Made by a program: the position numbers and the translations under genes. 64,000 nt of DNA from the NCBI GenBank assembly GCA_022844125.1, contig JALHMI010000011.1, positions 1 through 64,000 on the forward strand, in the 5' to 3' direction. Shown one piece after another: positions 4,776-10,755 of the stretch. The notes below the pieces were generated by a model that was given only the letters and a program-made list of their open reading frames with translations, did no database searches and was not told the DNA's origin. The stretch comes from Pirellulales bacterium. Its GTDB lineage: Bacteria; Planctomycetota; Planctomycetia; Pirellulales; PALSA-1355. How positions within the stretch are numbered: position 1 is the first letter of the stretch; each line of letters starts with the position of its first letter.

Positions 4776-4800
4776 CCCAGAAAACGCTTTTCCTGGGTTT
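4776..4800 (+). terminator. Probable terminator after dus
   Basis: CCCAGAAAA (4776-4784) can pair with TTTTCCTGGG (about 4788-4797) with one bulged base, and TTT follows. It lies 17 bases after the dus stop and before the suf promoter, where transcription should end. The T run is short, so efficiency is uncertain. Confidence 0.5.
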
Positions 4801-4840
4801 CTGCGGGCCCTTCTCGCCTGCGTCGCAAAGCCCCATTTAT

Positions 4841-4883
4841 TTTTGACATATTCTGTTGTCAAAAGTATCGAAATCGTTATGAT
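4841..4883 (+). promoter_or_regulatory. suf operon promoter and operator, apparently leaderless
   Basis: A perfect inverted repeat TTTTGACA-N8-TGTCAAAA occupies 4841-4864. Its right arm supplies a -35-like TTGTCA (4856-4861), followed after 16 bases by TATGAT (4878-4883) as the -10. Only six bases separate the -10 from ATG 4890, so the transcript would start at or next to the start codon, and no Shine-Dalgarno site is present. A repressor bound to the palindrome would cover the -35 element, which fits autorepression by the SufR-like protein encoded immediately downstream. The palindrome is seen directly; promoter use and regulator identity are inferred. Confidence 0.65.
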
Positions 4884-4889
4884 TTCAGT

Positions 4890-5543
4890 ATGGATCACGT
4901 GGCAGAAAGCTCTGATGACGGCCTGCTCGGCTTGCTTCGCAAGTCCGGCTCGCTGAGTGTATCGGACCTGACCAGGGCCACCGGTGTGACGCCGACGGCG
5001 GTTCGCCAGCGGCTAGTCCGGCTAATGGCTGAAGGTCTGGTGAATCGCGAGGTGAACCGTACCAACCGCGGCCGACCGAGCCACCGCTATGCCCTGACGG
5101 ACAAGGGACGCCGCCAAAGCGGCTCGAATTTCGCAGATTTGGCGCTGGCCTTGTGGCACGAAGTGCGAGCCGTCGAGCATCCCGAGGTTCGCCGCGGCCT
5201 CTTGGGGCGGATCGCCAAAACCATGGCCCGGATGTACGCCTCTGAGGTTTCAGGTACGACGACGGTCGAGCGAATGGACTCCGTTACGCGGGTGTTGTCT
5301 GAGCGAAACGTGCCGTTCGAGGTGGACCGTTCGGGCGAGTTGCCAGTGCTGACGGCCGTGGGTTGTCCCTATCCGGACCTGGCCGAGCACGACCGCGGGA
5401 TTTGTGCCTTGGAACGGATGATGTTTTCGGAACTGGTGGGCGAGGGTTTGCGCCTCTCCGAATGCCGGCTGGACGGCGACGAATGTTGCCGATTCGAGCC
5501 CCGGCGAGGTGCTTCAAAAGAGGCAGCTACGGCGGTACAGTGA
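4890..5543 (+). CDS. sufR: SufR-like Fe-S-sensing transcriptional regulator
   Basis: A 217-residue regulator. The N-terminal winged helix-turn-helix (about residues 10-75, SVSDLTRATGVTPTAVRQRL then a GRPSHRYALTDKG wing) is of the DeoR/ArsR-like type found in SufR. The C-terminal half carries cysteines 159, 172, 192, 199 and 200; the X12 spacing of the first pair matches the cluster-binding cysteines of cyanobacterial SufR, but later spacings differ. By family knowledge SufR represses suf genes when it holds a [4Fe-4S] cluster. It is the first gene of the suf operon and has its own palindrome over the -35 box. The start codon follows the predicted -10 by six bases, consistent with a leaderless message. 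Confidence 0.8.
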   Translation: MDHVAESSDDGLLGLLRKSGSLSVSDLTRATGVTPTAVRQRLVRLMAEGLVNREVNRTNRGRPSHRYALTDKGRRQSGSNFADLALALWHEVRAVEHPEVRRGLLGRIAKTMARMYASEVSGTTTVERMDSVTRVLSERNVPFEVDRSGELPVLTAVGCPYPDLAEHDRGICALERMMFSELVGEGLRLSECRLDGDECCRFEPRRGASKEAATAVQ

Positions 5544-5594: not shown

Positions 5595-6200
5595 ATGACC
5601 CAACCCTGGATCGAAGGCCGCTTTGAAGAGGGCCTGATTCTCACGACCGTCGAACAAGGCATCAATTGGGCTCGTCAGGCGAGCCTGTGGCCGATGACAT
5701 TCGGCCTGGCATGCTGCGCGATCGAGATGATGGCCGCCGGCGCCAGCCGCTATGACATGGACCGCTTTGGCGCCGGTGCGTTTCGCGCGAGCCCCCGCCA
5801 GGCCGACCTGATGATCGTCGCCGGCACGGTCACCTACAAAATGGCCAGCCGGGTGCGCCGCCTTTACAACCAGATGCCGAACCCCAAGTTTGTCATCGCG
5901 ATGGGCGCCTGCACAGTCGGTGGTGGCCCCTACTTCAAATACGGTTATCACGTCGTGAAGGGGGTCGACCTGGTCGTCCCCGTCGACGTGTACGTGCCGG
6001 GCTGCCCTCCGCGTCCGGAAGCCTTGCTCGAAGGCCTGATGCGGATCCAGGACAAGATCATGGGGCACAAGATCGGCAAGAAGGCGGGCATGCTCGCCGG
6101 CGACAAGATCGACGACGAACTGCCAATTCCGCATCACTCCGGCTACGTTGACGCACCGGAAGACGAGCCACTGTTCGATCACCAGAAGATTACGGGCTAA
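5595..6200 (+). CDS. nuoB: NADH-quinone oxidoreductase subunit B (NuoB), isolated
   Basis: A 201-residue subunit of respiratory complex I that carries the terminal [4Fe-4S] cluster N2 next to the quinone site. All expected ligands are present: the tandem C40-C41 ([11 protein letters not shown]), C106 (MGACTVGGG) and C137 ([14 protein letters not shown]). The ~40-residue tail after the [17 protein letters not shown] core is acidic and unusual but short. No other nuo gene occurs in this window, while complex I genes are normally in long operons. Here nuoB sits between the suf repressor and sufC, with 51 and 93 bases on either side, so it is probably cotranscribed with the Fe-S assembly genes. 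Either the nuo genes are dispersed, or this copy is a specialised paralogue. Confidence 0.9.
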
Positions 6201-6293: not shown

Positions 6294-7118
6294 ATGTCAG
6301 AAACACTGAAGATCAAAGATCTGCACGTCTCCACGACCGATGGCAAGGAGATCTTGCGCGGAGTAAACCTCGAGATCAAACAGGGCGAAGTGCACGCCCT
6401 GATGGGTCCCAACGGTTCGGGCAAGAGCACGCTGGGTTACGCCATCATGGGGCATCCCGGCTACGAGGTCACCCAGGGCAGCATTACCCTCGATGGTAAA
6501 GACGTGCTGGCGATGGAACCGAACGAACGGGCTCGCGCGGGTATTTTCCTGGCCTTCCAGCGGCCGATGGCAATTCCCGGCGTGAAGATGGCTGACTTCC
6601 TGCGTCACGCCGCGACGAATGTTCGTCGACCGGATCGCAAAGAAGGTGAAGAGCTGATTCCGATGCGTGAGTTCCGCAAAGAGCTCAACCAGAAGATGGA
6701 ACAGCTCCGCATGGATAAGGAGTTTGCCCGCCGCTATGTGAACGACGGTTTTTCCGGCGGTGAAATGAAGCGGGCCGAAATCCTGCAACTCGCCATGCTG
6801 CGGCCGAAGTTCGCGATCCTCGACGAGACCGACTCCGGCCTCGACGTTGACGCCGTGCGACTGGCCAGCCAGAGCATCGCCGACATCGGCGGCAAGGATA
6901 TGGGCATCCTGATCATCACGCACCACGAACACCTGCTCGAGCACAACCGGCCTGACTTCACGCACGTCATCCTGGGCGGGCGAATCGTCGAAACCGGTGG
7001 TCCCGAGTTAGCGCTTGAACTGCACAAGCAGGGATACGACCGCATCCGGGCGGCGTACCCCGAAGCGGCCGCCGCAGACGCGGCCTTGAAGGAAAATGAA
7101 CCGGCGGGCGCTCACTAA
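6294..7118 (+). CDS. sufC: Fe-S cluster assembly ATPase SufC
   Basis: A 274-residue ABC-type ATPase that powers the SufBCD scaffold in the cytoplasm. Walker A is GPNGSGKST (residues 38-46), the Q-loop is LAFQRPM, the signature is [11 protein letters not shown] (about 152), Walker B is [12 protein letters not shown] (about 173-184), and the switch histidine lies in [15 protein letters not shown] is the SufC form of the Walker B/D-loop. ATG 6294 ([10 protein letters not shown]) gives the normal N terminus; an in-frame ATG at 6252 adds 14 atypical residues. sufB follows after 83 bases. The C-terminal Ala-rich tail is slightly longer than usual. Confidence 0.95.
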
Positions 7119-7201: not shown

Positions 7202-8608
7202 ATGGCAACCGACGTAGCTGCCAAGCCGAAGTTCGGCGAAATCAATAAGTACGACTTCCACACCGACTCGAAGGCCGTCTTCAAGGCCCGCAAAGGTCTC
7301 GACGCGGACATCGTCCGCCAGATCTCGGATATGAAGAGCGAGCCGGCCTGGATGCGCGATTTCCGGCTCCGCAGCCTGGAGATATTCAACGCCAAACCGA
7401 TGCCGCGTTGGGGTGGAGCGATCGATCTCGATTTCCAGGATATCTTCTACTACCTCAAGCCGGCCGACCGCCAGGGCAAGACCTGGGACGAAGTCCCCGA
7501 CGAAATCAAGAAAACCTTCGATCGGTTGGGCATTCCCGAAGCCGAGAAAAAGTTCCTCGCCGGTGTGAAGGCCCAGTTCGAGAGCGAAGTCATCTATGGT
7601 TCGCTGAAAGAAGATCTCACCAGGCAGGGCGTGATCTTCACGGACACCGATACCGCCATTCGCGAGTATCCGGATCTGGTGCGCGAGTACTTCGCCACGA
7701 TCATTCCGCCGGCCGACAATAAGTTCGCCGCACTGAACTCGGCGGTCTGGTCCGGCGGGTCGTTCATCTACGTCCCCAAGGGCGTGAAGATCGAGTTCCC
7801 GCTGCAGGCCTACTTCCGGATCAACGCCGAAAACATGGGCCAGTTCGAACGAACCTTGATCATCGTCGACGAAGGCGCCGAAGTGCACTACGTCGAAGGC
7901 TGCACCGCCCCGATGTACAGCACCGAAAGCCTGCACTCGGCCGTGGTCGAAATCATCGTCAAGAAGCACGCTCGCTGCCGCTACACGACGATTCAGAACT
8001 GGGCCAACAATATCTACAACTTGGTGACCAAGCGGGCCGTGGCTTACGAAGGCGCCCTGATGGAGTGGATCGATGGCAATCTCGGCAGCCGCCTGACGAT
8101 GAAGTATCCGGCGGTTTACATGATGGAGCCGGGTGCTCGCGGCGAAATTCTCTCAATCGCTTTCTCCTCCGCCGGACAGCACCAGGACGCCGGCGCCAAG
8201 GTCGTGCATTGTGCTCCGAACACCTCCAGCCGGATCATCAGCAAGTCGATCTCCAAAAACGGCGGTCGCTCGAGCTATCGCGGCCTGGTGAAGGTCGAAA
8301 GCGGCGCCCGCAAGTCAAAGTCGAGCGTCGTGTGCGATGCCTTGATTCTCGACTCGGCCAGCCGCAGTGACACGTATCCCTATCTGGAAATCGATGAGCA
8401 AGACGTCACGATCGGTCACGAGGCCAGCGTCTCGCGGATCGGCGAAGAGCAGTTGTTCTATCTCACCAGCCGCGGACTTTCTGAGCCCGAGGCCAGCACG
8501 ATGATCGTCAATGGCTTCATCGAGCCGCTGATCAAAGAGCTGCCGATGGAATACGCCGTCGAAATGAATCGCCTGATCGAATTGCAGATGGAAGGTTCGG
8601 TCGGTTAA
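7202..8608 (+). CDS. sufB: Fe-S cluster assembly scaffold SufB
   Basis: A 468-residue scaffold protein of the SufBCD complex on which nascent Fe-S clusters are built. The beta-helix core is recognisable from [38 protein letters not shown] and [14 protein letters not shown]. The SSVVCDALI segment provides the conserved cysteine that accepts sulfur in characterised SufB proteins. The C terminus ([17 protein letters not shown], then [13 protein letters not shown]) is standard. Length is normal for the family. It follows sufC by 83 bases and is followed by sufD. No cysteine desulfurase (SufS) or sulfur carrier (SufE/SufU) gene accompanies it, so sulfur must come from an enzyme encoded elsewhere. 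Confidence 0.96.
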
Positions 8609-8695: not shown

Positions 8696-10009
8696 ATGAG
8701 CGTTACGACCACTGCCGCCGGTTTTACCCAAGAGTCTTTCGAGCGCTTCGTCGCGCAGCGAAATGAGCCCGGGTGGCTTCGCGAGTTGCGGCGCGAAGCC
8801 TGGCAGAAGTTCGAATCGCTGCCGATGCCCAGCCAGCGCGACGAAGAGTGGATGCGCACGGACATTCGCACACTCCGGCTCCAAAAGTTTGGCTTTTCGT
8901 CGGACGGTTCGCCCTCGGCCGGCGCAGCGCCCGATGGATTGCTGACGCACGGCGTTGAGCTGGGCGGCCAGACGATTGCCATCGACAGCCGTCCGCATAC
9001 GGCGCGGTTGAATGAAAAGTGGGCCGCCAAGGGTGTGCTGTTTGGCAGCCTCGATGAGCTCGCGGCCTCGCACGGCGAGGTCGTTAAGAAACACCTGTTC
9101 CGCGCGTTCACGCCCGGCTACGATCGTTTCGCGGCCCTGCATGCGGCCGCCTGGAGCGGTGGCACGCTGCTCTACGTGCCGCGCGGTGTCACCGTCGACG
9201 AGCCGTTTCACATGCTCTCGGCGCTGAGTTCCGGCGGAGTGGACATGGGACACACGCTGGTCATCCTCGAGGACGGGGCCGAGGCCACGCTGCTGGCGGA
9301 AACGACCAGTCTCGTCGAGGGCGGCGCCGGGCTGCACGTCGGTGGCATCGAACTCCTGGTTGGTCCTCGGGCGCGCCTGCGCTACGTGAACTTCCAGAAC
9401 TGGTCGGCCGGCGTCTGGCACTTTGCCCATCAGAAAGCCCTGGTCGATTCGGACGCTTCGCTGCAGTGGACGATCGCGGCGCTTGGCGCGAAGCTCGCCA
9501 AGGTGAACCAGCACGTCGCTCTCACCGGCCCCGGCGCGACCGCTCAGGTAAACGGCGTAATGTTCACCGAAGGCAAACAGCACCTGGCCTACAACACGCT
9601 GCAACATCACGAAGCCTCGCAATGCCGGAGCGACTTGCTTTACAAGGCGGCCCTGCAGGACGACTCGCGCACCGTGTGGCGCGGCATGATCCGCGTCGAC
9701 GAAGGCGCTCAGAAGACCGACGGCTATCAGCGTAATGACAACCTGATGCTTTCGGAACACTCGCGCAGCGACTCGATTCCAGGCCTGGAGATCCTGGCCG
9801 ACGACGTGCGTTGCACCCACGGCTCGACGACCGGCCGCGTGGACGACGAGCAATTGTTCTATGCCCGTTGCCGCGGCCTGACCCGCAAGGAGGCCGTCCG
9901 CATGGTGGTGACGGGCTTCTTCCAGCAGGTGTTCGACCGGATCACGATCGAAAGCGTCCGCGAAGCTCTCGGCCTGGCAATCGCCCGGCGAATTCGGGAA
10001 TATGAGTAG
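8696..10009 (+). CDS. sufD: Fe-S cluster assembly protein SufD
   Basis: A 437-residue paralogue of SufB that completes the SufBC2D complex and is implicated in iron acquisition. Signatures: the N-terminal NEPGWLRELRREAWQKFESLP (shortened here to its start) and RDEEWMRTDI, the central VPRGVTVDEPFHM, WRGMIRVDEGAQKTDGYQ, and the conserved cysteine-histidine segment VRCTHGSTTGRVDDEQLFY (the SufD histidine thought to act in cluster formation). The C terminus IARRIREYE is typical. An 87-base gap separates it from sufB. No clear Shine-Dalgarno precedes ATG 8696, a recurring trait in this window. Confidence 0.94.
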   Translation: MSVTTTAAGFTQESFERFVAQRNEPGWLRELRREAWQKFESLPMPSQRDEEWMRTDIRTLRLQKFGFSSDGSPSAGAAPDGLLTHGVELGGQTIAIDSRPHTARLNEKWAAKGVLFGSLDELAASHGEVVKKHLFRAFTPGYDRFAALHAAAWSGGTLLYVPRGVTVDEPFHMLSALSSGGVDMGHTLVILEDGAEATLLAETTSLVEGGAGLHVGGIELLVGPRARLRYVNFQNWSAGVWHFAHQKALVDSDASLQWTIAALGAKLAKVNQHVALTGPGATAQVNGVMFTEGKQHLAYNTLQHHEASQCRSDLLYKAALQDDSRTVWRGMIRVDEGAQKTDGYQRNDNLMLSEHSRSDSIPGLEILADDVRCTHGSTTGRVDDEQLFYARCRGLTRKEAVRMVVTGFFQQVFDRITIESVREALGLAIARRIREYE

Positions 10010-10092: not shown

Positions 10093-10410
10093 ATGTCCGA
10101 ATTCCAAGCCGTCGCCAAGGTTTCCGACGTTCCCGATCCCGGTAAAATGCTGGTGGAGATCGACGATCAACTCGTCGTGCTGGTGCGTTGCGATGGAGCG
10201 TTCTACGCAATCGATGACGTCTGCACGCACGACGGCGGACCGCTGGGCGAAGGCGAGCTTGTCGGCTGCGCGCTCGCCTGTCCCCGGCACGGAGCCAAGT
10301 TTGACGTGAAGACTGGCGCGGCGCTGACCATGCCCGCCACGAAGCCGACCGGCACGCACGAAGTCAAAGTCGAAGGCGACACAATCCTGATCAAGCTGCG
10401 CGAATCTTAA
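10093..10410 (+). CDS. Rieske [2Fe-2S] ferredoxin
   Basis: A 105-residue single-domain Rieske protein. The two ligand motifs are CTHDGGPLGEG (Cys-X-His) and CPRHGAKFDV (Cys-X2-His), as in ferredoxin components of non-heme dioxygenases and in the small Rieske proteins often encoded within suf operons. It lacks a membrane anchor or signal and so should be cytoplasmic. It lies 83 bases after sufD and 15 bases before the DUF59 gene, so it is almost certainly part of the suf transcript. Its role there, electron supply for cluster assembly or a dedicated client protein, is not established. No oxygenase partner is encoded nearby. Confidence 0.9.
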   Translation: MSEFQAVAKVSDVPDPGKMLVEIDDQLVVLVRCDGAFYAIDDVCTHDGGPLGEGELVGCALACPRHGAKFDVKTGAALTMPATKPTGTHEVKVEGDTILIKLRES

Positions 10411-10425
10411 GAGGAGCCACCGGCC

Positions 10426-10755
10426 ATGCCCGTCAGTGAAGATGCCGTTCGCGAAGCCCTCAAGCAGGTCATCGATCCCGAACTGTTCGTCAATATCATC
10501 GACCTCGGACTGATCTACGTGGTTACGGTCGAGGAATACGAGGCCGACGATCAGCAGAGAAAGGATCGCGTGAAGATCGAAATGACGATGACCAGTCCGG
10601 CGTGCCCCGCCGGTCCGCAGTTGGTGGCCAACGCTCAGAAGGTCGTCGGCGCGCTCGAAGGCGTGGGCGACGTCGAGGTGAAGATCGTGATGGTCCCGCC
10701 CTGGACGCCGGATCGCATGACCGAAGACGCTCGCGATCAGCTCGGGATTTTCTAG
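10426..10755 (+). CDS. sufT: SufT-like MIP18/DUF59 Fe-S maturation protein
   Basis: A 109-residue protein of the MIP18 (DUF59) family, whose members act in Fe-S cluster delivery to client proteins. Visible hallmarks: VREALKQVIDPELFVNIIDLG, the TMTSPACPAGPQL loop with the conserved cysteine, and VEVKIVMVPPWTPDRMTEDA. The gene begins 15 bases after the Rieske stop with a GAGG Shine-Dalgarno core upstream. It closes the suf operon; the next gene (an ATP-grasp enzyme) starts 18 bases later, so transcription may continue into the mfn-like cluster. SufT is the best name by context, but PaaD-like paralogues cannot be excluded. Confidence 0.88.
   Translation: MPVSEDAVREALKQVIDPELFVNIIDLGLIYVVTVEEYEADDQQRKDRVKIEMTMTSPACPAGPQLVANAQKVVGALEGVGDVEVKIVMVPPWTPDRMTEDARDQLGIF

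Follow-up and report, generated by a model that had tools for sequence, protein, structure and literature searches.

A conserved palindrome over the −35 box of a sufR-like gene in Pirellulales is a candidate operator for Fe-S control

The window analysed here is a stretch of 64,000 nucleotides from a Pirellulales genome, and it carries a suf operon in the order sufR-nuoB-sufC-sufB-sufD-Rieske-sufT-like. No sufS, sufE or sufU was present among the proteins scanned between positions 4890 and 10755. The operon and the elements upstream of its first gene are laid out as follows.

4838..4867, + strand: extended operator dyad, conserved core ATTTTTsACA-N8-TGTCAAAAAT
4841-4848, no strand: left arm of the operator, TTTTGACA (ATTTTTsACA in relatives)
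4857-4864, no strand: right arm of the operator, TGTCAAAA (TTGTCAAAAAT in relatives)
4856-4861, + strand: −35 hexamer TTGTCA, within the right arm
4878-4883, + strand: −10 hexamer TATGAT, spacer of 16 from the −35 hexamer
4890, + strand: predicted start of a leaderless message, on the A of ATG or no more than two bases from it, as suggested by the 6-nt gap
4890..5543, + strand: SufR-like regulator of 217 aa, winged helix, best named relative SufR
5595..6200, + strand: NuoB, the 20-kDa Fe-S subunit of complex I
6294..7118, + strand: sufC (TIGR01978, above cut-off)
7202..8608, + strand: sufB (TIGR01980, above cut-off)
8696..10009, + strand: sufD (TIGR01981, above cut-off)
10093..10410, + strand: Rieske ferredoxin (PF00355)
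10426..10755, + strand: SufT-like protein (FeS_assembly_P/DUF59)

The initial annotation described a perfect 8-bp inverted repeat with an 8-base spacer overlapping the −35 element, and this description holds. The repeat TTTTGACA-N8-TGTCAAAA spans positions 4841-4864, with TTGTCA in its right arm, and an inverted-repeat search extended the arms to 11 nt at 91% complementarity. TTGTCA and TATGAT, 16 bp apart, match 10 of the 12 consensus letters; one such pair was found, compared with 0.1 expected in shuffles, and promoter prediction returned a single promoter upstream of sufR. The hexamer TTGACA in the left arm (4843-4848) is a better −35 match, but was rejected because it lies 29 bp from the −10 box, which is too far. 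TATGAT ends at 4883 and is separated from the ATG at 4890 by TTCAGT (4884-4889), in agreement with the annotated distance of six bases between the −10 box and the start codon. Taken alone, the window repeat is weak evidence because it is only mildly unlikely by chance: 8-bp inverted repeats with spacers of 3-12 arose in 42 of 5000 dinucleotide shuffles of 4790-4889, and 30 of them occur across the 64-kb window, four with a spacer of 8.

Of 396 genomes of the order that were searched, 297 encode a SufR-like protein. From these 297 genomes, 110 upstream regions were assembled, made up of the 30 loci that the search gave and 80 chosen among the next-ranked matches, a set that leans towards closer relatives. 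The 110 derive from 116 loci after exclusion of pattern hits (L001, L006-L008) and copies (L035-L036); two relatives from a search of genome contigs were copies of loci already in the set and were not counted. A weight matrix, refined on the same 110 regions that it scored, found a site scoring above 12 in 102 of them, compared with scores below −3 for shuffled regions, and eight loci lacked a site above the matrix threshold. The conserved letters read ATTTTT(C/G)A(C/A)A, eight loose positions and TGTCAAAAAT, followed by TA--AT 16-18 bp past the −35 box; the −35/−10 spacer is 16 in 86 of the 102 sites. The first three columns of the −35 box are T, T and G in 99% of sites, and these are the most conserved letters.

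The best dyad centre of the matrix coincides with the centre of the window palindrome. In 66 of 102 sites, the two arms are complementary at seven or more of ten positions, compared with 20 of 1020 when the arms are shuffled. Exact arm symmetry is not the rule among relatives, and a perfect 8-8 repeat like that of the window occurs in nine of the 102 sites, the window included. It is this comparison across relatives, with 102 of 110 loci bearing the element over the −35 box as originally described, that makes a convincing case for an operator. In family f15 (L159-L162), sufC directly follows sufR with no nuoB between them, and the operator can form a long palindrome that is perfect or close to it, as in L159 (ATTTTTGACAAC-N4-GTTGTCAAAAAT).

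Genome searches used R1, a sequence-only site model trained on 100 distinct sites out of the 102. Of 146 genomes of the order, 76 have an R1 site under strict filters. All 24 held-out genomes with an R1 hit have the site just before sufR, as established by sequence for 16 and by coordinates for eight (G033, G070, G075, G087, G092, G115, G135 and G141). R1 sites were found in 76 of 131 sufR-bearing genomes and in none of 15 sufR-less genomes, although some of the latter are incomplete or may be missing the operon. In the window's own genome, R1 marks one place, the suf promoter, which is itself one of the 100 training sites. A pattern search of this 6.4-Mb genome found no second place matching the window palindrome at up to two mismatches; at three mismatches there are seven places, compared with four for the reversed pattern.

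Nine R1 hits lie away from the sufR locus. Five of these, in four genomes, precede a gene for an A-type Fe-S carrier, three (L167, L168 and L169) have no evident Fe-S gene downstream, and one (L170) stands at a contig end. A cysteine-rich small protein is encoded downstream of the weak hit in L169. Among carrier loci chosen independently of the site, 19 of 48 score above 5 and 29 score 5 or less; in the controls, 5 was exceeded by 6 of 480 dinucleotide shuffles and by none of 48 stretches from inside the genes. The left arm at the carrier often contains TATAAT, and the operator there overlaps a −10-like box, not the −35 box. In L164, L165, L166, L172 and L201, the TATAAT box that the operator overlaps stands upstream of an unlinked IscA/SufA/ErpA-like gene. 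The window's genome has a diverged operator copy 95 nt upstream of its own carrier gene, which R1 missed. The operator thus stands before another Fe-S gene, that of the A-type carrier, in some relatives, and in the window's own genome as a diverged copy only. Judged from these upstream sequences, the SufR-like regulator very likely also controls the unlinked carrier gene.

The first gene product was compared with SufR. Its predicted structure (mean pLDDT 87) contains an N-terminal winged helix, and searches of solved structures by sequence and by fold returned MarR/ArsR-type winged-helix proteins only. SufR in the broad sense is encoded beside or within the suf operon, where this gene lies too, and acts as a repressor of suf when it carries a [4Fe-4S] cluster. 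Cys159, Cys172 and Cys200 are present in 110 of 110 relatives and Cys192 in 109, giving the near-invariant spacing C-X12-C-X19-C-X7-C; the reviewed SufR pattern is C-X12-C-X13-C-X14-C. The cyanobacterial SufR equivalog model TIGR02702 scored 46.6 bits (46.2 on the genome), far below its cut-off of 178.8, and the name SufR is for this reason to be taken as SufR-like. Comparison supports the SufR-like first gene of the initial annotation, with its four conserved cysteines.

The closest known systems resemble the window in part. According to PMC8593673 and PMC13421787, cyanobacterial (Synechocystis) SufR is a winged-helix Fe-S sensor encoded beside suf that represses its own gene through a promoter palindrome, CAAC-N6-GTTG, much like the switch proposed for the window. 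The window differs in operator sequence and spacing, in the cysteine spacing after the second Cys, in having sufR as the first gene of the operon and in its low TIGR02702 score. The exact motif CAAC-N6-GTTG occurs in none of the 102 sites, as the initial annotation had anticipated in noting that the repeat departs from this type, and CAA-N7-GTTG occurs in 21. A cyanobacterial operator in disguise was accordingly rejected; one f15 site, that of L159, has CAAC-N4-GTTG. In Mycobacterium tuberculosis, Rv1460 (SufR) is described in PMC6034842 as a repressor encoded by the first gene of the suf operon and is reported to be leaderless, with Cys203-216-244 spaced as Cys159-172-200 are here; the nuoB and Rieske genes of the present operon are absent there. 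For Streptomyces avermitilis and Corynebacterium glutamicum, PMC11995493 places the SufR operator across the sufR promoter. As told there for S. avermitilis, the operator is CAAC-N6-GTTG and covers the −10 box; here a different sequence covers the −35 box. A literature search on SufR in Planctomycetes and on leaderless Fe-S SufR, covering mostly papers outside subscription, found no paper on this operator.

The initial annotation also predicted a message without a 5′ leader, and this prediction fits the window and part of the order only. A spacing of 6-7 nt between the −10 box and the start codon was taken to mark a leaderless arrangement, and the gap in the window is 6 nt. The first in-frame ATG lies 6 or 7 nt past the −10 box in 12 of 102 sites (9 and 3, respectively), and any other single gap accounts for at most five. 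Counted in any frame, ATG occurs 10 times at gap 6, compared with 1.9 times on average at each gap from 12 to 59. The arrangement is concentrated in family f8, where ATG stands 6-7 nt from the −10 box in 10 of 12 loci. In these ten, the distance from ATG to the promoter is constant while that from ATG to a conserved Asp varies from 8 to 25 codons, and eight have no other in-frame start as far as the Asp. Five of seven held-out f8 loci, with frame derived from coordinates, likewise have ATG at 6-7 nt; the others have it at 10 and 41 nt. A Shine-Dalgarno-like 4-mer precedes ATG in 1 of 22 loci with ATG within 12 nt and in 23 of 76 with longer leaders, a comparison in which short leaders leave little room for the 4-mer. 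In most relatives, a long stretch separates the −10 box from the first in-frame ATG.

The alternative that the operator is correctly recognised and sufR is not leaderless, with the transcript starting elsewhere or translation starting at GTG 4899 behind a leader of about 9 nt, appears rather unlikely, at about a one-in-four weight. That GTG is in frame and precedes the conserved Asp, making it an alternative start, and the first ATG of the three relatives in the window's own family lies 22-30 nt past the −10 box. In two of these three (L003 and L005), a GTG in frame stands precisely 6 nt past the −10 box, and these two may have a leaderless GTG start. Against the alternative stand the single predicted promoter, the ATG at the expected transcription start and the recurrence in f8 of the 6-7 nt gap, mostly with no other in-frame start before the Asp. 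A leaderless sufR start is therefore likely in the window's genome. Because the window's own family members have a more distant first ATG, the arrangement is not general: it recurs in f8 and a few other genomes and is no property of the operator. Nor is a leaderless sufR as such new, given the M. tuberculosis precedent in PMC6034842. PMC5397173 groups Planctomycetes, represented by one genome, with phyla in which genes lacking a Shine-Dalgarno motif carry a leaderless and/or S1 signal.

Considered as a whole, the palindrome is probably the operator through which a SufR-like Fe-S sensor represses its own suf operon, likely leaderless in this genome; the sensor very likely controls the carrier as well. 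The mechanism proposed draws on the protein family and on the position of the site. When Fe-S clusters suffice, a holo-dimer would occupy the dyad ATTTTTsACA-N8-TGTCAAAAAT and cover the −35 box; upon loss of the cluster, the regulator would release the DNA and the suf operon would be transcribed. In the window's genome, the message would then most likely start at the ATG, and sufR would be translated without a leader. At the carrier promoter, the holo-regulator would block the −10 box instead of the −35 box, and cluster loss would similarly free the promoter. Autorepression, as put forward in the initial annotation, is plausible from the conserved operator over the regulator's own −35 box and keeps the status of a prediction from sequence comparison. 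The recurrence of the operator before Fe-S genes supports an autoregulated Fe-S regulon under the SufR-like protein.

That the SufR-like protein itself binds the dyad is likely, its main rival as binder being an Rrf2-type regulator. The dyad could serve a different regulator of Fe-S or iron, such as one of the Rrf2/IscR type, with the SufR-like protein acting elsewhere or assisting. A precedent exists in Myxococcus xanthus RisR, which PMC9973013 presents as an Fe-S sensor repressing suf through a palindrome with AT-rich flanks, similar to the present case; RisR belongs to the Rrf2 family and its site is GAC-N7-GTC. The rival reading is unlikely, since the site precedes a sufR-like gene across the order and is absent from all 15 sufR-less genomes, and since most off-locus copies stand before Fe-S genes. 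Lower still is the probability that the conserved stretch is simply a strong promoter with AT-rich flanks and no operator. The −35 box does lie in the right arm, with its first three letters the most conserved, but the left arm, at least 8 bp upstream of the −35 box, is both conserved and symmetric, and at the A-type carrier the dyad recurs in a shifted register that covers the −10 box. A chance palindrome, for which the shuffles and the other repeats in the window leave room, merits next to no credence: the site is kept across the order and turns up again ahead of an unlinked Fe-S gene, which contradicts this reading, although the repeat alone would not.

The second gene of the operon encodes a respiratory subunit. 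nuoB follows sufR in 105 of 110 loci. The first complex I cluster of the window's genome contains A, B, C, D, E, F, G, H and an I-like gene, and the second (G000 C9 96000-112000, L225) contains A, C, D, H, J, L, M and N. No nuoB was found in the second cluster, and a stretch upstream of it resembles NuoI at 32%. Only two NuoB proteins were found in this genome. Of 30 stretches that surround the second nuoD, not one contains nuoB. Among the 36 of 110 loci entering the comparison, the second nuoD is missing from the genomes of both checkable nuoB-less suf loci and from 2 of 34 nuoB-bearing ones (Fisher 0.0095); the two nuoB-bearing exceptions, G030 and G040, are 81-82% complete. Because the second cluster lacks B, the 30 stretches lack it too and nuoB is co-absent with the second nuoD, suf-encoded NuoB is probably the Fe-S subunit missing from the second complex I. 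Among the papers listed for nuoB with a suf operon or with planctomycetes, none concerned this arrangement.

These observations supply a concrete candidate operator for Fe-S control in planctomycetes, at a single promoter whose leader one family seems to have lost while others retain it. A broader proposal is made tentatively, at slightly less than even weight: that the order possesses an Fe-S regulon with its own operator code, covering the −35 box at suf and the −10 box at the unlinked A-type carrier, and that the nuoB of a second complex I lacking the NADH module has left its own cluster for the suf operon. If this is true, that complex could be completed only once the Fe-S sensor opens suf, and the operon would thereby link Fe-S sensing to a split respiratory complex.
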